Below are positions 2,132 through 20,244 of a stretch of DNA of 64,000 nt, one piece after another. Every line of letters begins with the position of its first letter. The first letter of the stretch is position 1. Position numbers and translations under genes: made by a program. The DNA lies in the NCBI RefSeq assembly GCF_028553885.1, contig NZ_CP067169.1, positions 887,501-951,500 of the forward strand. The letters are read 5' to 3'. The notes beneath the pieces were generated by a model. That model did no database searches. It had not been told where the DNA came from and saw only the letters and a program-made list of their open reading frames with translations. This DNA comes from Paracoccus aestuarii (lineage in GTDB: Bacteria > Pseudomonadota > Alphaproteobacteria > Rhodobacterales > Rhodobacteraceae).

Positions 2132-3862
<1,731 letters not shown>

Positions 3863-3878
3863 GAGGTCAACTCCACAA

Positions 3879-4304
3879 TCAACGACGCACCGCGCTGCTC
3901 TTCTTCGCGCGGGCCAACTCAAGGAAGCGGGTCTTGATCTGCGCGAACAGCCCCGGCGGAATGAAGCCGTAGCTGAACTCTCCCCGCGTGCCGGGGACTG
4001 GCGACAGCCCGCCATTGGGCCATTCGTCGATATTGTGCTCCGAGACGATCACCCAACTTGGCGCCTCATCAAGGCCGATGGCCTGCTTCACCTTGGCCGG
4101 GATCTCGATGCCGACCGTATCGCCTGCGGGCGGCGCATGGGTGATCGGCAGCAGGACCACATAGCGGGGGCGCACGAAGGCATCCGTCGCGGCGACGAGG
4201 CAGGTCGGACGCGTCTTGCCCTGATCCTGGCCAGCGGCCGCCTCATGCGTCCAGAGGTAATCGTAGCGCAGGACGAGGCCGGGCTTCGGTTCAGGAAATG
4301 CCAC
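3879..4304 (-). CDS. PemK/MazF-family toxin
   Basis: 141 residues. The N-terminus (PGLVLRYDYLW, then GKTRPTCLVAA) matches the beta-barrel core of PemK/MazF-like growth inhibitors, with a KxRP motif before the first core strand. Family members are mostly ribosome-independent mRNA interferases. It lies nine bases downstream of an antitoxin gene and next to the recombinase, the usual place for an addiction module on a mobile element. Cleavage specificity cannot be read from sequence. Confidence 0.8.
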   Translation of the reverse strand: MAFPEPKPGLVLRYDYLWTHEAAAGQDQGKTRPTCLVAATDAFVRPRYVVLLPITHAPPAGDTVGIEIPAKVKQAIGLDEAPSWVIVSEHNIDEWPNGGLSPVPGTRGEFSYGFIPPGLFAQIKTRFLELARAKKSSAVRR

Positions 4305-7940: not shown

Positions 7941-9407
7941 TCAGGACGAGACGACGAGTTCGGTCATCATGCCGGTGATGAGATGCGGCATGTGATGGCA
8001 ATGCAGCATCCAGCGCGCCGCCTCACCCGCATCGAATGCGATCGTGACCATCGACATGGGCGGGATATAGACCGTGTCCCGGAGCGCGCCGTCAATGCGC
8101 TGGCCGCCGATGCCGACAACCTGAAAGACGTGGCCGTGCAGATGCATGGGATGGGCCATCATCGACATGTTGTGGAACATCAACTCGATACGCTCGCCGG
8201 CACTTGCGCTGATCGGTACATGGTCGCCCCAGGTGCGGTCGTTGATGGTCCAGCGATAGGGGGACATGGTGCCGCCCAGCATGATCATCTCACGGCGCGC
8301 GGGGGCGCGCTGCGATAGCGGTCCCCGGGCACGCAACCCGGCCTCTTGCGCAAGATCGAGGTCGAATGCAGGTGCTGCGTCGTCTGCCATGGCGTCGATC
8401 ATGGAGACCCGACCCGAGGGGGTGGCAAGGATGATCCCGGTCCGTTCCCGCGCACCCTCGCGCAATGCGAGGATCGGCCAGGCACCTTCCTCTGCCGGCA
8501 GATCGAGCTCGATATCCAGCCGTTGTCCCATTGCGAACCCGAAGCGCCGGCCGGAGATCGGCGCGATGGCATGGCCATCGACCGCCACAAGCCGGCCCTC
8601 GAGGCCGCCCGTGTCGATCCAGAACACGGTCGCGGCCGCAGCGTTGATGATACGCAGCTTGATCCGGCCGCCCTTTTCGATCCTTACGACTTCCGGATCG
8701 GAAAGGGTCCGGTCATTCGCAAGGTAGGCATCGAAGTCGATGTCGTTGAGGTCCATCTCCATGCCGGGCATGGCGCCGTGATCGCCCGCCATCATCCGGT
8801 CCATCATGCCGCCGCCCGAACCATGATCCATCGCGCCGTGATCCATCGCGCCGCCACCGGGACCGTGCCCGATATTGGCCATCAGTTCTTCGGGCGAGGT
8901 GAAGGAGAAGTCCTGCAGGATCAGGACGATTTCCTGACGGTCCGCTGCAAGATCCTCGCCCGAGCGGACGATGAGGGGGGCGGCAAGCAGCTGCATTTCC
9001 TGAACGGGAAGGTGGCTGTGCATCCAGTGCGTGCCCGCGAGCGGGGCAAAGTCGTAGTCGCGCATCTCGCCCGGGCGCAAAGCTGGCATGGGCGCGTCGG
9101 GCACCCCGTCCTGATCGTTGGGCGGGATCTGACCGTGCCAGTGGATGATCGTCTCGATACCGAGATCGTTCACCAGGCGGACATTGAACCGTTCTCCCGG
9201 ATCGAGGATCAATCCCTGACCTCCAAGCGCGTTCTCCAGCCCGAACACGGTCGCGGCTCGGCCATCTATGTCGAGCGAGCGGCGTGTGGCGCTGAGGGTC
9301 CGGATTGCGCTGGTGGTCTGGGCTGGAGATCCGGCAGGCAGGGACATCGCCGCGACCGACGCGGCGGTTGTCGCCATGAACCGGCGACGGGTGTAGCGAA
9401 AACTCAT
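7941..9407 (-). CDS. Multicopper oxidase (CueO/CopA-like)
   Basis: 488 residues with a Tat signal (RRRFMATTAAS). All four copper-ligand blocks are present: HWHG at 89-92, HWMHSH at 127-132, HPMHLHGH, and HCHHMPH at 469-475 with a following axial Met. A Met/His-rich insert (MDHGAMDHG, MMDRMMAGDHGAM) resembles the Cu(I)-binding region of cuprous oxidases. The expected role is oxidation of Cu(I) to less toxic Cu(II) in the periplasm. It sits between a Cys-rich exported protein and a cytochrome c on the same strand. Confidence 0.94.
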   Translation of the reverse strand: MSFRYTRRRFMATTAASVAAMSLPAGSPAQTTSAIRTLSATRRSLDIDGRAATVFGLENALGGQGLILDPGERFNVRLVNDLGIETIIHWHGQIPPNDQDGVPDAPMPALRPGEMRDYDFAPLAGTHWMHSHLPVQEMQLLAAPLIVRSGEDLAADRQEIVLILQDFSFTSPEELMANIGHGPGGGAMDHGAMDHGSGGGMMDRMMAGDHGAMPGMEMDLNDIDFDAYLANDRTLSDPEVVRIEKGGRIKLRIINAAAATVFWIDTGGLEGRLVAVDGHAIAPISGRRFGFAMGQRLDIELDLPAEEGAWPILALREGARERTGIILATPSGRVSMIDAMADDAAPAFDLDLAQEAGLRARGPLSQRAPARREMIMLGGTMSPYRWTINDRTWGDHVPISASAGERIELMFHNMSMMAHPMHLHGHVFQVVGIGGQRIDGALRDTVYIPPMSMVTIAFDAGEAARWMLHCHHMPHLITGMMTELVVSS

Positions 9408-9482
9408 GGAGTATGCTCCTTTGGCCGACTGGACTGTCGGCGATCGGTGGTCCCGGCGCGTCTGCCGGGGACTGCAACGATG

Positions 9483-9857
9483 TCAGGAGTGGGTTTTCGG
9501 AGGTCTCGGATCCGGCGCCGCGGCTAGGCCGCCAACGACCTGTCCGTCAGGGAGAAGATAGGAAAGGTCACCGGAAAACGACGTCACGAGCGGGCTCGGA
9601 ATGAGCGCATGCAGCGCCGACATGCAGGGAAGGACGCAACTGGCGCAGGCGGCCTTCAGTGCGTGATCCGCGTCTTCGGCGTCGATGCAGCAATCGGCGC
9701 GCTGCGCGTCGGAGGGGTTCTGACTCGACTGAACGGCGAAATGGTCCGAATGCGCCGCCGAGGCGTGACCCTGGTGGGTCGGCAAAAGAGCAAGCATCGC
9801 GACCAGAACCGCCGCGAGCAAAGACCTCCAGAGGCTGTGGGCACAAAGAGACTTCAT
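9483..9857 (-). CDS. Small Cys-rich exported protein (paralogue 1)
   Basis: 124 residues with a signal peptide (SLLAAVLVAMLALLPTHQGHA). Mature part has ADCCID, CASCVLPC and a C-terminal AAAPDPRPPK tail. The same plan (signal, CC, CxxC, ending near RPPK/RPR) recurs in two other genes in this window, starting at 11567 and 38700. It resembles DUF2946-like proteins found in copper gene clusters. First gene of the multicopper-oxidase set; copper binding is inferred. Confidence 0.7.
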   Translation of the reverse strand: MKSLCAHSLWRSLLAAVLVAMLALLPTHQGHASAAHSDHFAVQSSQNPSDAQRADCCIDAEDADHALKAACASCVLPCMSALHALIPSPLVTSFSGDLSYLLPDGQVVGGLAAAPDPRPPKTHS

Positions 9858-10181
9858 TTTTTCATGGTATTCGCGCTTTTCTCCGTCGTCCAGCCAGATA
9901 GGTTCGAGCGAGACCAACAAAGACGTGAGTGCGGGTGGTCCTCGATCGTATCGCGGTATCGCGTTCCCGCCTGCCCCGATCTTCCAGCTATTGCAGGTTT
10001 TACGCCTATCATGGGGCGGTTGGGGCGCGCTTGATCGGTTTCCGTGCGCCCGAAGCTGCCCGCCGGCTGGTGCGTCGGGCAGGTGCTGGTCCAGCGGTTT
10101 GACGCAGCACATCCTCGACTCGGCGCGACTTCCGCGGTGATATCCGCTCCATCACCGTCAGATCGTTCGGCGGCGGCAGTC
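9858..10181. other. Intergenic region upstream of the multicopper oxidase operon
   Basis: 324 bases without a convincing gene. It should hold the promoter for the minus-strand Cys-rich/oxidase operon. A poor MerR-like half palindrome (CTTCC and GCAGG, seven bases apart) lies at 9981-9997 but lacks recognisable -35 and -10 elements. Confidence 0.4.
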
Positions 10182-11510: not shown

Positions 11511-11566
11511 GGATCGCAGCGCGTTGCACGGGCATGATATCCTGGTTTCGTGCCAACAGGCCAACC

Positions 11567-11971: not shown

Positions 11972-12095
11972 ACCGGCGCGCCGTAGTCGGCGTGCCGGAG
12001 CAAACCGACCGGCTCCTTCTGGGCCGGCCCGATCCCGATGCCTTCCAGAGCGCGCAAGGTGCTGCGCTCCCGGCAATCCGTGAGGAACGATCACC

Positions 12096-12770
12096 ATGTC
12101 CGAAACCCGACACCCGACCACCCGTCGCGGCTTCATCGCCGCGTTCGGCTTCGGCGGCGTCAGCCTCTATGCGCTTTGGGCGGCCTATGGCGCGGCCCCC
12201 GGCCCGCTGGCGCTGTTCGGCCGCGCCGCCCCCGCAGATGCGGACCGTCACGGCACCGACGACCAGGCCACGGGCGGCCACGCCCATGGCGCGACCTCCG
12301 GCGGCCCGAGCGCCGACGATTTCCGCCGCACGGTGGCGGAATTCGTCGAGCGCCACCGCGCGGAAGACGGTGTCGTCCATCCCCGCCGTCCTGCTCAGGA
12401 TGGGCATGCCGACGCCGCCCCCGCCCCCAGCCACGGCGCCCATGGCGGGCACGACGAGGCCACCGCGCAGGACCACGACGGCGGTGACGAGCCGGTCGAG
12501 GTCTACATGCTGGCGGAGAAATGGTTCTATGAGCCGACCCACCTGCGCCTCGACGCCGGCACCCGCTACCGCTTCCGGATGATGGCGACCGATGTCTCGC
12601 ACGGGGCCTCGATCCAGTTCGGTCGCGGCGGACGGATGATCCGGCTGCGACCCAATGCGGTAGCCGAGATGGAGGCCGTGTTCGCGCGACCCGGCAGCTT
12701 CCTCGTCTATTGCACCGTCTATTGCGGCGCGGCGCATGACTACATGCAAGCCCGCATCGATGTGGTCTGA
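12096..12770 (+). CDS. Cytochrome-oxidase-type subunit II with CuA site
   Basis: 224 residues. A single N-terminal Tat-like membrane segment (TRRGFIAAFGFGG), a His-rich linker (residues 50-130) and a C-terminal cupredoxin. CuA ligands are complete: His169 in TDVSHG, then Cys206, Cys210, His214 and Met217 in YCTVYCGAAHDYM, the canonical CxxxCxxxHxxM. It would take electrons from a cytochrome c and pass them to subunit I, encoded 26 bases downstream. The pairing also fits sNOR-type (NorS/NorY) nitric oxide reductases, but I cannot settle this by eye. Confidence 0.88.
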   Translation: MSETRHPTTRRGFIAAFGFGGVSLYALWAAYGAAPGPLALFGRAAPADADRHGTDDQATGGHAHGATSGGPSADDFRRTVAEFVERHRAEDGVVHPRRPAQDGHADAAPAPSHGAHGGHDEATAQDHDGGDEPVEVYMLAEKWFYEPTHLRLDAGTRYRFRMMATDVSHGASIQFGRGGRMIRLRPNAVAEMEAVFARPGSFLVYCTVYCGAAHDYMQARIDVV

Positions 12771-12796: not shown

Positions 12797-14437
12797 GTGA
12801 ACGAACGTCTCACCGCGCTGCCCACCTCTGACCGCCGCCTGCTGCTCGCCCTGTCGGCGGCCTCGCTAGTGGCGCTTCTGCTCGGCATCCTCGGCGGCCT
12901 CATGACCGCGCTCGCCCGCGGCGGGATGATCGACATCCTGCCAGAGTCGGCCTATCGCTTCCTGACCGTCCACGGCGTCGCGATCTTCTTCTACTGGCTC
13001 TATCTGGCGCAGGTCGCGCTGCTGCTCGGGTTCGCGGCCATCGAGGACACGCGGGTGGGGCTTGCCGCGCGCGGGCTCGCCCGCGCGGGGTTCGCGGCGA
13101 TCCTCGCCGGGCTCATTCTCAGCGTGGCGGGGAGCCTCATGGGCACGCCGCTGCTTTATGACGGCGCGCCGGAGCTTGCCACCGAGGAGCCCGCGGCGAT
13201 GCTGGTGTTCAGCCTGGGCTACCTGCTGCTCGGCCTCGGCCTGATGGCCGCGCCGACCTCGGCGCTCGCCACGCTGCTGCGGCCGCGCCGCGAGGGTAGG
13301 CAAGAGAGGATGAGCGCCGTCGGATTCGCCCTGTTCGCCTGGGCCGGGTTCCTGATCGTCAGCGGGTTCGCGGCGCTCCATGCCTTCGTGCCCACCGCGC
13401 TCTGGGCGCTGGGATGGGGGCCGTTCCCGGCGTCGCACGGCACCAACTGGCATATCCTGTTCCACAACATGCATTATCTGCCGCTGATGGCGACTGTGCT
13501 GATGTGGTATGTGCTGGTGCAGGCACTGACCGGGGTGAAGTCGGTGTTCGGCGAGCGGTTCTCAAAGATCGTCTTTTCCGCCTATCTGATCTTCGTGCCG
13601 CCGACCTCGCTCTACCACATGTTCCTGGAGCCCGATCTGCCGGGGGCGGTGCGGGTCACTGGCTCGCTCCTGTCGCTGTTCGTCAGTGTGCCGACGCTGA
13701 CCGCGTTCCTGATCATCGTCGCCTCGCTCGAGGTCCATGCCCGTTCCCAGGGCGCGCGCGGGCTGTTCGGTTGGCTGGGAAGGCTGCCTTGGCGGCATCC
13801 GGCGATGGCGGCGGTCGGGCTTGCGGTGGTCAACATGGGCTTCGGCATCGTCTTCGCCTTCGTGCTGATCCAGGAGAGGCTGGCGCCGCTCTTGTCGGAC
13901 ACCTTCTTCGTGCCGGGCTATTTCCACTTCTTCACAGTCGGCACGGTCAGCCTCACCCTGCTTGCGGCGCTTGCCGTGATGATGCCGGCGCTATCGGGCG
14001 GCAGGCTGGCCCTGCCGGGGCTGATGCGGCTGATGCCATGGCTGGCGAGCGCCGGGCTGCTGGTCTTCGGCGGGGCCGGGGTGGCGGCGGGCTATCTCGG
14101 CGTGCCGCGCCGGGTGATCGACAGCACCTATGGCGGCGAGGCACCGGCACTGTGGCAGGAGCTGATGGCGGCGGTCGGCGTCGGCGGCGCGGTGATGGCG
14201 CTAGCGCTGGCCGTTTTCGCCCTGGGCGTCGCGGCGGCCCTTTTGCCGCGCCACACCGCGTCTGCGGAACTGGCGGTCGTCCCTTGGGGCGGCGTCGCGG
14301 TCCGGCCCGGGGCCGCCGCCTGGGTGGGACCGGTCTCGGTGCTGCTCATCGTGGTGGCGATGTATGCCTTCACCGCGCTTGGCTTTGAACTGATGCAGGC
14401 CCTTCCCGTCACCGCCACCGGCGGCGGCGCCCATTGA
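12797..14437 (+). CDS. Divergent heme-copper oxidase superfamily subunit I
   Basis: 546 residues with about 13 membrane helices, GTG start. Low-spin heme ligands are present (His59 in LTVHGVAIFFYW and His377 in VPGYFHFF). Aligned by spacing with Thermus ba3 oxidase, His233-Tyr237 corresponds to His223-Tyr227 (HNMHY) and His283 to His274. However, the CuB ligand His282 becomes Tyr273 (LYHMF) and the high-spin heme ligand His384 becomes Tyr375 (GYFH). The spacings 223-273-375 match 233-282-384 closely. The reaction may be oxygen or NO reduction or something else. It forms an operon with the CuA subunit and a tiny membrane protein. Confidence 0.85.
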   Translation: MNERLTALPTSDRRLLLALSAASLVALLLGILGGLMTALARGGMIDILPESAYRFLTVHGVAIFFYWLYLAQVALLLGFAAIEDTRVGLAARGLARAGFAAILAGLILSVAGSLMGTPLLYDGAPELATEEPAAMLVFSLGYLLLGLGLMAAPTSALATLLRPRREGRQERMSAVGFALFAWAGFLIVSGFAALHAFVPTALWALGWGPFPASHGTNWHILFHNMHYLPLMATVLMWYVLVQALTGVKSVFGERFSKIVFSAYLIFVPPTSLYHMFLEPDLPGAVRVTGSLLSLFVSVPTLTAFLIIVASLEVHARSQGARGLFGWLGRLPWRHPAMAAVGLAVVNMGFGIVFAFVLIQERLAPLLSDTFFVPGYFHFFTVGTVSLTLLAALAVMMPALSGGRLALPGLMRLMPWLASAGLLVFGGAGVAAGYLGVPRRVIDSTYGGEAPALWQELMAAVGVGGAVMALALAVFALGVAAALLPRHTASAELAVVPWGGVAVRPGAAAWVGPVSVLLIVVAMYAFTALGFELMQALPVTATGGGAH

Positions 14438-14453
14438 ACCGAGGAGACTGACG

Positions 14454-14627
14454 ATGAACGAGGATTTCTGGCTCATCCTGCCCGTGGCCGTGATCTGGGC
14501 GCTGCTTGCCGCAGTCTACGCGCTCGCCCCCTGGGGCGACATGATCGGCTACGCGCGGGTCTGGGGCTTCGGCTCGCTGCTGTTCCTGGTGCTTGCAGGG
14601 TTGCTTGCGAAACGGGCTGCCCGCTGA
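14454..14627 (+). CDS. 57-residue membrane protein, possible oxidase small subunit
   Basis: A GAGGAG ribosome site precedes ATG at 14454. The product begins MNEDFWLILPVAVIWALL and has two hydrophobic segments separated by a YALAPWGDMIGYARVWG loop, ending in AKRAAR. Sixteen bases separate it from subunit I. The size and position suggest an accessory subunit of the CuA/heme enzyme, like the small subunits of ba3 and cbb3 oxidases. No family is recognised. Confidence 0.65.
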   Translation: MNEDFWLILPVAVIWALLAAVYALAPWGDMIGYARVWGFGSLLFLVLAGLLAKRAAR

Positions 14628-14828: not shown

Positions 14829-15293
14829 TCAATGGCGGGCGAAGACCTCCCGGCCGGAAGCCGTGAACAGGATCACCTCGTAGGGTTCTGTCTCCCCCCC
14901 CACCTCCATGCCGGGAGAGCCAAGCGGCATGCCGGGAACTGCAAGGCCTATGGCCAAGGGCTGCTCGCGCAGGAGACGAAGCACGTCCCCGGCCGGGACA
15001 TGGCCTTCGATGGCGTAGCCCCCGACGGCGCCGGTGTGACAGGAGTGGAGCTCGGGCGGGACGCCGAGCTGCGCCTTGAGGGGACCGAGATCGTCGGTCA
15101 TCCGGACGTTGACCGTGAACCCGGCCGCGCGCATGTGCTCGATCCAGCCACCGCAACAGCCGCAGTCCGGCGAACGCGCGACCTCCATGACCGGCGCGCC
15201 GGCCACGGCAAGGCCGGGAAAGCCACCGGCCGCTGACGCGACGGCGCCGGCCGAGAATAGAACGAGGATCTTTCGGCGAGGCAGTTCGGTCAC
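14829..15293 (-). CDS. DUF411 metal-binding periplasmic protein
   Basis: 154 residues. Signal peptide (ILVLFSAGAVASAAGGFPG) then the DUF411 signature SPDCGCCGGWIEHM, followed by HSCHTGAVGGYAIEGHVP and PGMPLGSPGME. DUF411 proteins occur with copper efflux genes. The GTG start at 15293 overlaps the cueR stop (GTGA) and has an AAAGGAGA ribosome site, so translation is probably coupled to cueR. A copper-binding role is family-level inference. Confidence 0.85.
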   Translation of the reverse strand: MTELPRRKILVLFSAGAVASAAGGFPGLAVAGAPVMEVARSPDCGCCGGWIEHMRAAGFTVNVRMTDDLGPLKAQLGVPPELHSCHTGAVGGYAIEGHVPAGDVLRLLREQPLAIGLAVPGMPLGSPGMEVGGETEPYEVILFTASGREVFARH

Positions 15294-15774
15294 GCGGGTT
15301 CTCCTTTCCTGTTCCTGTCGCCAATTGGCGATTGATGGGGGCTGCCGATCGCACCCCGCCGCCGCCCCGGTCGGCCGGGACCCTCGCCGGCCGGGCTTTC
15401 GAGGTCGGCAAGGATCGGGCAATCGGGCCGGTCGTCGCCCGAGCAGCACGAGGCAAGCGTCTGGAGCGTGTCCGCCATCTGCTCCATCTCGTCAATCCTG
15501 CGGCGCAGGTCGTCGATCCGGGCCAGCGCGACGCGCTTGACATCGGCGCTCTGGCGGCTGCGGTCGCGCCAGAGCCCGAGAAGCTCGTCGATCTCCGCGA
15601 CCGAAAAGCCGAGATCGCGGGCGCGGCGGATGAAGCGCAGCATGTGAACGTCGCTGGACGCATAGTCGCGATAGCCCGAGGCGGTGCGATCGGCTCGGGG
15701 GATAAGCCCGATTTGCTCGTAATAGCGGATCATCTTCGCGCTGACGCCCGAGGCGCTGGCCGCTTCGCCGATGT

Positions 15775-15778
<4 letters not shown>
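15290..15778 (-). CDS. cueR: Copper-responsive MerR-family regulator (CueR/HmrR)
   Basis: 162 residues. The MerR helix-turn-helix ([25 protein letters not shown]) starts at residue 1, followed by a long dimerisation helix. The metal loop [10 protein letters not shown] places Cys112 and Cys120 exactly as the Cu(I) ligands of E. coli CueR. The ATG overlaps the copA stop (ATGA), so it is the second gene of a copA-cueR-DUF411 operon. It should control the two CueR-type promoters between copA and copZ. The C-terminal tail is longer than usual and basic. Confidence 0.93.
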
Positions 15779-18318
<2,540 letters not shown>

Positions 18319-18348: not shown

Positions 18349-18379
18349 CAGATGGGGCTTCCAACGGTGGGAAGGTCAA
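18349..18379 (-). promoter_or_regulatory. CueR-type promoter of copA
   Basis: On the minus strand: -35 TTGACC (18379-18374), a 19-base spacer, then CATCTG (18354-18349). The spacer holds the dyad CCTTCC-caccgtt-GGAAG (18375-18358). The overlong spacer with an internal CCTTCC/GGAAG dyad is the mark of a MerR-family copper promoter, untwisted by the activated regulator. Confidence 0.88.
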
Positions 18380-18687: not shown

Positions 18688-18718
18688 TTGACCTTCCAAC
18701 GCTGGGAAGCCCCATCTG
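18688..18718 (+). promoter_or_regulatory. CueR-type promoter of copZ
   Basis: TTGACC (18688-18693), 19-base spacer, CATCTG (18713-18718). The spacer holds CCTTCC-aacgctg-GGAAG (18692-18709). The architecture and hexamers match the copA promoter, so both should respond to the same CueR protein. The copZ start codon lies 34 bases downstream. Confidence 0.88.
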
Positions 18719-18959: not shown

Positions 18960-19358
18960 GTGAACAAGCTCACACCGATCTTCATCGCGGGTGCGATCGC
19001 GGCGGCCGCCGGGCTGGCGATCGCCGAATCGCGCATGGGCGGGGCCGATCACGGCGCGCATATGGATCACGGCGGGCACGCGGTGCAGGGCACCGCATCC
19101 GACAATCCCGCGATCCGCGCGTACAGGGATGCCAACGACCGGATGCACGGCGACATGGCGATCGACTACACCGGCGATGCCGATGTCGATTTCATGCGCG
19201 GCATGATCCCGCATCACCAGGGCGCCATCGACATGGCCCGCGTCGTGCTGGAACACGGAACGGACCCCGAGGTTCGCGCGTTGGCCGAGGAAGTCATTTC
19301 GGCGCAGGAGGCCGAGATCGCGATGATGCGCGCCTGGCTCGCCGAGCGGGGCCATTGA
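18960..19358 (+). CDS. DUF305 periplasmic protein
   Basis: 132 residues, GTG start with a GAGGGGAG ribosome site. A hydrophobic signal ([16 protein letters not shown]), a His-rich stretch ([14 protein letters not shown]), then the DUF305 helical domain with [12 protein letters not shown] and [14 protein letters not shown]305 proteins bind copper through paired His and Met and are common in copper loci. Nearly the same domain is repeated at 37420-37824. Cotranscribed with copZ. Confidence 0.9.
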
Positions 19359-19476: not shown

Positions 19477-20244
19477 ATGCCGAACGCCTCAGCCAAACGC
19501 GCCGAACTGCACCGGATGGTGATGCCGGGGCATATGTGCCCCTGGGGCCTGAAGTCTCTCGATCTGCTCAAGCGCGAGGGTTACGCAGTCGCCGACTACA
19601 AGCTGACCTCGCGGGCCGAGATCGACGCCTTCAAGGCGAAGCACGATGTCGAGACCACCCCGCAGACCTTCATCGGCGGCGAGAGGATCGGCGGCTACGA
19701 CGATCTGCGGCGCTTCCTCGGCAAGACGGTCAGGGACAAGGGCGCGGTGACCTACACGCCGGTCATCGCGCTCTTCGCCATGGCGGCGCTGATGGCCGGC
19801 GCCGCAAGCTGGGCGATGCACCGGAGCGTGCTGACGGTCCACGCCGCCGAATGGCTCATCGCCATCGCCATGTGCCTGCTGGCGCTGCAGAAGCTGAAGG
19901 ACGTGGACGGCTTCGCCACCATGTTCCTGAATTACGACCTGCTGGCCCAGCGTTGGGTTCCATATGCCCATGTCTATCCCTTCGCCGAGGCGCTGGCCGG
20001 CGTACTGATGTTCGCGGGGGCGCTGATGTGGGTCTCCATTCCCGTCGCGCTGTTCATCGGCACCATCGGCGCGGTCTCGGTGTTCAAGGCGGTCTATATC
20101 GACCGGCGCGAGCTGAAATGCGCCTGCGTCGGCGGCGACAGCAACGTGCCGCTGGGCTTCGTCTCGCTGACTGAAAACCTGATGATGGTCGGCATGGCTG
20201 TCTGGATGCTGCTCAAGCCGGCGGGCGTCGGCGTCGGGCATTGA
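19477..20244 (+). CDS. Glutaredoxin-MauE fusion membrane protein
   Basis: 255 residues. The first 85 form a glutaredoxin fold with MPGHMCPWGLKS (active Cys21, no second Cys, so monothiol-like) and the cis-Pro block TPQTFIGGERIGG. The rest has four membrane helices resembling MauE/DoxX-type proteins, with VYPFAEALAG and a late CACVGGDSNVP motif. MauE is implicated in disulfide chemistry of exported proteins. A fused pair could move reducing equivalents across the membrane. The partner is unknown; it lies between two DUF305 genes in the copper module. Confidence 0.82.
   Translation: MPNASAKRAELHRMVMPGHMCPWGLKSLDLLKREGYAVADYKLTSRAEIDAFKAKHDVETTPQTFIGGERIGGYDDLRRFLGKTVRDKGAVTYTPVIALFAMAALMAGAASWAMHRSVLTVHAAEWLIAIAMCLLALQKLKDVDGFATMFLNYDLLAQRWVPYAHVYPFAEALAGVLMFAGALMWVSIPVALFIGTIGAVSVFKAVYIDRRELKCACVGGDSNVPLGFVSLTENLMMVGMAVWMLLKPAGVGVGH

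Follow-up and report, generated by a model that had tools for sequence, protein, structure and literature searches.

A rare proteobacterial clade of heme-copper oxidase-like proteins with an apparently rebuilt active site and a copper-linked operon

The subfamilies of heme-copper oxidases (HCOs) tabulated in PMC8756737 are reductases of oxygen or NO, and Table A4 of that paper lists, at the position of the active-site Tyr, an Asn in sNOR and a Gln in eNOR. For the ba3 oxidase, PMC3141039 describes a K-path that includes Y244, Y248, S309, T312 and T315, and places a pair of arginines at the propionates of heme b, and PMC10766771 describes D372 and H376 as forming a network around the A-propionate of heme a3.

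In copper homeostasis, experiments on Rhodobacter capsulatus have shown that the leader peptide CutF senses copper during its export and that a multicopper oxidase is under its translational control (PMC9973294). CruR of Bordetella has the same architecture and acts in the opposite sense (PMC9426467); according to the same source, copper-uptake operons may also be headed by CutF/CruR-like leaders, and one such leader heads a cytochrome oxidase biogenesis operon that is induced by copper starvation. A word search of the main texts of PMC9973294, PMC9426467 and PMC8456105 found no HCO subunit among the downstream genes that they name. The operon described here has a fold and a CuA subunit of known kinds. 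Its active-site set, and the presence of a copper leader in front of an HCO-like operon, are new within the literature searched, where titles and the opening lines of abstracts revealed no paper on this clade.

The operon lies in a stretch of 64,000 nucleotides of Paracoccus aestuarii DNA, referred to here as the window. The features discussed are collected in Table 1.

Table 1. Coordinates within the window of the HCO-like operon and its copper-type neighbors
Feature	Coordinates	Strand	Remarks
CopA/CutO-type multicopper oxidase	7941..9407	-	Pfam and NCBIfam
Second CutF-like leader ORF	9483..10112	-	As called, start perhaps internal; ends DPRPPKTHS; precedes multicopper oxidase gene
CutF/CruR-like leader ORF, 115 aa	11624..11971	+	Signal-like N-terminus, Cys/His-rich, ends LRPPKFLAIA
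Subunit II	12096..12770	+	Tat-like RR N-terminus, 1 predicted TM helix, His-rich linker, CuA cupredoxin
HCO subunit I-like protein	12797..14437	+	GTG start, 546 aa, Y273 and Y375, H226 gained
Small membrane protein, 57 aa, VWGxG-type motif	14454..14627	+	Third structural gene
DUF411 protein	14829..15449	-	Pfam
MerR regulator	15290..15865	-	C-x7-C metal loop
Heavy-metal P-type ATPase	15775..18318	-	Two CxxC domains, CPC
DUF305 protein	18960..19358	+	Neighbor

The subunit I ORF has a codon-position GC content of 0.70/0.49/0.89, consistent with coding DNA. Its sole Pfam domain is COX1 (PF00115, E 4.1e-37), and no NCBIfam model matched it at E 0.001. The closest solved relative identified by phmmer is subunit I of the Thermus thermophilus ba3 oxidase (wild-type entries E ~1e-18, mutant entries reaching E 4e-21). 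The alignment equates H223 and Y227 with H233 and Y237 of ba3, Y273-H274 with H282-H283, and Y375-F-H377 with H384-F-H386, which is identical to the residue map that an initial annotation of this DNA had drawn for positions 223, 273-274 and 375-377. That annotation had also suggested structure prediction as a check. An AlphaFold2 model built on a 66-row alignment (pTM 0.91, mean pLDDT 87.7) has the HCO fold, and Foldseek gives TM-scores of up to 0.80 against ba3. In the VIA list the model matches 7deg (Z 35.4, 2.5 Å over 474 residues) and 1ehk (Z 34.8, 2.6 Å over 469 residues), with A-type oxidases level with ba3 at Z 34.6 and below, so that the fold by itself is no pointer to ba3. We conclude that the ORF is an HCO subunit I, nearest in sequence to Thermus ba3. 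It is not the only oxidase gene of the cell, since three further COX1 genes in the genome have the motifs of an aa3-type, another A-type and a cbb3-type oxidase.

GTDB contigs were scanned by profile, which gave 84 stretches encoding a relative. The best 80 of these 84 were used; they are 46-80% identical to the window protein, and belong to Alpha-, Beta- and Gammaproteobacteria, with many MAGs among them. Counting the window, Y273 and H274 are each present in 81/81 sequences, and Y375 in all 80 rows that have a letter there. Neither tyrosine position was included in the search seeds, and more members with the same tyrosines were found by profile searches free of such seeds. Tyrosines this invariant across the clade are neither chance nor sequencing error. 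H223, H226 and Y227 are also each found in 81/81, counts that are partly by construction because one of the two search seeds contained these residues; the HxxxY pair H223/Y227 was seen again in members found by profile. The proteobacterial loci that share both tyrosines thus form a real clade, which the initial annotation, pointing to related sequences with the same motifs in other bacteria, had thought possible. Clade members are rare. In samples that each include the genome of the window, they occur in 5 of 289 alphaproteobacterial genomes and, within the family, in 3 of 149; in a sample of the phylum, where scoring covered the first few candidates from each genome, they occur in at least 1 of 398. 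Of the 291 stretches on viral contigs that fit the pattern, none codes for a relative.

For comparison with other HCOs, 26 of the 81 clade rows were aligned with 42 reference sequences (14 A-type, 8 B-type, 17 eNOR-like and 3 C-type/NOR), the groups being assigned here from motifs. Positions 282 and 384 of ba3 are His in 42/42 references and Tyr in the clade, which bears out the central claim of the initial annotation, that two active-site histidines have been replaced by Tyr. The residues that it listed as retained are also in place: the low-spin heme His pair (H59 in 79/80, H377 in 80/80), the HxxxY pair, and one of the two adjacent CuB histidines, H274, a position that is His in all 42 references. 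The clade therefore has no canonical proximal His for a high-spin heme, and its canonical CuB trio is incomplete, Tyr273 standing where H282 would be. The arginine pair that lies at the heme b propionates in ba3, R438/R439 here, is present in 80/80.

The replacements extend well beyond these two positions. The equivalent of D372, which is D or N in 41/42 references, is Ala (A363) in 80/80 clade rows, and that of H376, His in 39/42 references (with S or T in 3 of the 14 A-type), is Ser (S367) in 80/80. All 42 references have Gly at position 363, where 80/80 clade rows have Ala or Ser; at position 362, a Phe or Leu in 80/80 takes the place of the Gly, Ser or Thr of the 39 A, B and eNOR-like references. 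At the equivalent of V236 (V, Q or L in the references) there is a new invariant residue, His226, one turn from H223, which may face the former CuB site; H223, H226 and H274 could together still serve this site from positions other than the canonical ones, and may be able to hold a metal there. Judged from these alignments, the active site appears to have been rebuilt, and not simply altered at two residues. Replacement of W229 and G232 was also considered as main evidence for heme loss, and was dropped, because 3 of the 8 B-type references are also without them, having S at 229 and L at 232.

Two observations concern other HCO groups. One B-type subgroup (L160, L162 and L168, with L154, L216 and L240 by motif), with the motif WTLHAIVYFW or a similar one, lacks the Trp and Gly that usually precede the CuB His. 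An eNOR-like subunit I (GHGAQQ) on a Thermus thermophilus plasmid (L163, 598-2280) has Lys in place of the low-spin heme His of HxH (GHFK) and adjoins Rrf2 and DUF542 genes.

The initial annotation had expected a Tyr-ligated heme with very different chemistry, and this is the main rival to the reading developed below. Here, Tyr375 would bind a second, high-spin heme, perhaps with His226 as the distal ligand to give a His/Tyr heme, and the complex would reduce peroxide or another oxidant using electrons from CuA. Tyr375 is invariant and sits exactly at the position of the proximal ligand, with H226, H223 and H274 remaining opposite and the HxxxY pair kept, and to this extent the expectation stands. 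However, throughout the clade other residues stand at the D372 and H376 equivalents and in place of the small ones at 362/363, which makes loss of the high-spin heme at least as likely as its ligation by Tyr. No heme O synthase gene was found near the 80 clade loci, compared with 15/20 eNOR/B-type and 10/20 A-type control loci; this counts against the Tyr-ligated heme too, although it is compatible with heme b all the same. On balance, the residues suggest that a high-spin heme is probably absent, and we regard a Tyr-ligated one as unlikely, if less so than any of the other alternatives considered below.

A second alternative is that the protein is a divergent NO or oxygen reductase, still turning over a classical substrate at its altered site. 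The K-path residues are partly replaced in the clade: T312 becomes A/V/L303, T315 becomes I/V306 and Y244 becomes V234 (the last change being common to the clade and eNOR), and the equivalent of Y248 stays Tyr (Y238), that of S309 being Thr (T300). Identity as a B-type oxygen reductase was rejected on these grounds, though the HxxxY pair is present. Identity as eNOR or sNOR was rejected because Tyr227 is found in 81/81 where these have Gln and Asn, respectively. Since the residues that define oxygen reductases, eNOR and sNOR are not all present, the clade is filed under none of them. A quick maximum likelihood tree, containing the clade and eNOR-like, B, A and C/NOR groups and no labelled sNOR sequences, shows the clade as a single branch (support 100) that groups with eNOR-like sequences (SH-aLRT 95). 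This sister relation is provisional because of the long branches, the stem of the clade being the longest in the tree at 1.96 changes per column. Among the up to 60 loci read from two profile searches for sNOR, the sequences were eNOR-like (Q), B-type, A-type or of the clade. The proximity to sNOR that the initial annotation thought possible is not supported by the diagnostic residue, and the nearest sampled group is eNOR. The grouping with eNOR, and a Y227 as in oxygen reductases, would suit a divergent reductase. The missing proximal His, the incomplete His3 CuB set, the partly lost K-path, the long stem and the copper-type neighbors all speak against it, and we consider it improbable; classical reduction of oxygen or NO is unlikely.

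The electron input appears intact. The CuA ligands of subunit II are H169, C206, C210, H214 and M217; all five side-chain ligands are present in 68/68 aligned members, and tblastn finds the CuA domain at 80/80 loci. A Tat-like RR start fits a pattern devised here in 55/68, and the linker (residues 41-130) has a median His content of 6.1%. The AlphaFold2 model of subunit II has a pTM of 0.61 overall, with a confident cupredoxin part that matches the CuA domain of ba3 (2cua, E 4.7e-10, rmsd 1.6 Å). Directly 3' of subunit I, a short ORF with a VWGxG-type motif is found at 78 of the 79 loci with enough sequence (50/81 were called when a length limit was applied). In seven gammaproteobacterial loci (L068, L073, L075, L076, L079, L080 and L081) a BNR_2-like gene, whose match lies just below the cut-off, precedes subunit II on the opposite strand (for example L080, 7998-9245 (-)).

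The loss of the canonical catalytic ligands could also mean that the protein is a degenerate, non-catalytic remnant, retained as a structural or copper-binding partner. However, 72 columns of the 81-row clade alignment are invariant, including most of the former active-site positions, and the CuA and low-spin heme ligands are intact, a pattern that plain decay would not produce. Of all the explanations considered, we find this much the least probable.

The leader ORF upstream of subunit II has a longest in-frame version that begins at 11534. A rule was adapted from PMC9973294 and PMC8456105: fewer than 150 aa, a signal peptide (judged by hydrophobicity only), Cys, PP in the last 15 residues, and a position upstream on the same strand. 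Applied to 66 loci, the window among them, this rule finds a leader before subunit II in 39, a count in which L058, L066, L074 and others look spurious by eye, compared with 18 of 803 control ORFs (other ORFs at the same loci). The majority of these 18 stand in front of copper-island genes, one example being the multicopper oxidase gene of the window. Without the 17 Azospirillum-type loci the count is 23/50, and under other, earlier rules it was 45/77. No match to the DUF2946 profile was obtained for the window leader (an Azospirillum homologue reaches E 0.33, below cut-off), and its one Pfam match, DUF6153, is again below cut-off (E 0.0046); its assignment as CutF-like therefore rests on its architecture. 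A cutFOG-like stem-loop before subunit II was considered and not used, the intergenic RNA having a z of -1.85 with 8/200 shuffles folding equally well.

Copper-type genes surround the operon in the window and in many of its relatives. The MerR regulator is, we assume from its metal loop, of the CueR/HmrR type, and the P-type ATPase is presumably CopA-like by its motifs; homologues of the latter are close to 20/80 clade loci. Neighbors were scored with eight marker proteins, the names CopA, CusA, CusB and CusC being assigned here from sequence. At least one copper-type gene is found at 41/80 clade loci, against 1/20 eNOR/B-type and 0/20 A-type control loci. Among the markers, LTXXQ and RND lack specificity for copper; the controls were drawn from different genomes, not matched in lineage to the clade, and related loci are counted as independent. 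The sequence surveyed amounts to 1.39 Mb for the clade, and 0.40 and 0.39 Mb for the two control sets. Without the LTXXQ marker the count is 39/80, and without the 17 Azospirillum-type loci it is 28/63; in 28/80 loci no copper-type gene was found and no CutF-like leader either, the leader being testable in 65 of the 80. The operon is copper-linked, and its function is probably copper-related. This connection, the leader ORF and the wider changes around the high-spin heme site had been overlooked in the initial annotation.

Several further features of the window may be recorded. The multicopper oxidase gene lies right behind the second CutF-like leader, giving a pair of the cutF-cutO type (7941-10112 (-)). 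A large serine recombinase is encoded at 2165-4015 (-), which suggests that the copper region may be a mobile island or adjoin one. At 19477-20244 (+), beside two DUF305 genes, a weak glutaredoxin-like domain is fused to a MauE-type membrane domain. Exact CTTCC-N7-GGAAG inverted repeats occur upstream of the CopA-like ATPase gene and near the DUF305 gene (18358-18374 and 18693-18709), and we take these to fit the CueR/HmrR operator consensus. A site with one mismatch between the leader and subunit II (12042-12058) was not used as an operator for the operon; a scan of the whole window allowing up to 2 mismatches gave 49 sites against 32.4 expected. For a degenerate DNA pattern devised here, 22 matches lie in the window, where 24.9 would be expected.

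The copper context is also compatible with a complex that runs in the opposite direction, as a cupric reductase or copper delivery system: cytochrome c would donate electrons that reach Cu(II) by way of CuA and heme b, and the Cu(I) so formed would be exported by CopA/Cus or used in the assembly of cuproenzymes. Cus-type and CopA-type pumps are often neighbors, there are cytochrome c genes near the operon in the window, and the link of CruR-type leaders to copper-uptake operons (PMC9426467) is in keeping with it. Co-occurrence with detoxification genes suits oxidation equally, and the sequence gives no direction. We judge this reading unlikely, slightly more so than the Tyr-ligated heme.

The proximal heme His is lost, this loss is kept across the clade, and copper genes and a leader are nearby; copper handling, rather than oxygen respiration, is therefore the probable role. 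The explanation that we favor, with a probability of roughly 0.5 (the odds for this and for the rival explanations partly overlap), is a redox complex of copper homeostasis built on an HCO frame, under leader control, with a lone heme b and a metal at the former binuclear center. By analogy with CutF, the nascent leader peptide would sense periplasmic copper and set the translation of both subunits, II and I. Copper or a donor may be gathered at the His/Met-rich part of subunit II, and electrons would be exchanged between the bound copper and CuA, the low-spin heme b in subunit I being the next partner. At the former binuclear center there would be no high-spin heme but a single metal, probably copper, on H223, H226 and H274, with Y227, Y273 and Y375 close to it. 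The likeliest net reaction would be the conversion of toxic Cu(I) to Cu(II), reduction of Cu(II) being less likely, and the acceptor of the electrons from Cu(I) could be oxygen, peroxide or a c-type cytochrome. This specific reaction, Cu(I) oxidation, is put forward only tentatively, and it is similarly tentative to see here an HCO-fold protein that takes part in neither oxygen respiration nor NO reduction.

A clade without the proximal His, with its electron input intact and in a copper setting, would broaden what the HCO fold does, and offers a natural setting in which to test why the high-spin heme is needed. Its members may carry an ordinary cytochrome oxidase annotation, in which case they would inflate the oxidase counts of genomes. 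The clade points, besides, to a membrane-bound redox step for copper alongside the soluble multicopper oxidases.

It is worth setting the clade beside the known systems. With B-type (ba3) oxidases it shares the fold, the low-spin heme His pair, the equivalents of H233, Y237, H283 and R449/R450, and a CuA subunit II directly upstream of subunit I. It differs from them in having Tyr for His282 and His384, His for V236, Ala for D372 and Ser for H376, in the hydrophobic residues at the T312, T315 and Y244 positions of the K-path, and in that no CtaB was found nearby; many of its loci add the leader ORF, and the clade adds the small VWGxG protein. With eNOR, its sister in the quick tree, it shares the low-spin heme ligands and a cupredoxin subunit II (as given for eNOR in PMC8756737), whereas eNOR has Gln at the Tyr227 position and keeps all of the CuB and proximal histidines. 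The heme O synthase gene near most eNOR/B-type loci also sets both groups apart from the clade.

Like the CutF-CutO and CruR systems, the clade has a small, exported, Cys-rich leader with PP near its C-terminus, upstream on the same strand, and the Tat-type start of CutO recurs in clade subunit II; unlike in those systems, the genes behind the leader encode an HCO-like complex. Multicopper oxidases are soluble periplasmic enzymes with a fold unrelated to that of HCOs. The clade would resemble CutO, CueO and CopA in the Cu(I)-oxidizing role proposed for it, and in the window it shares with the multicopper oxidase both the island and the type of leader.
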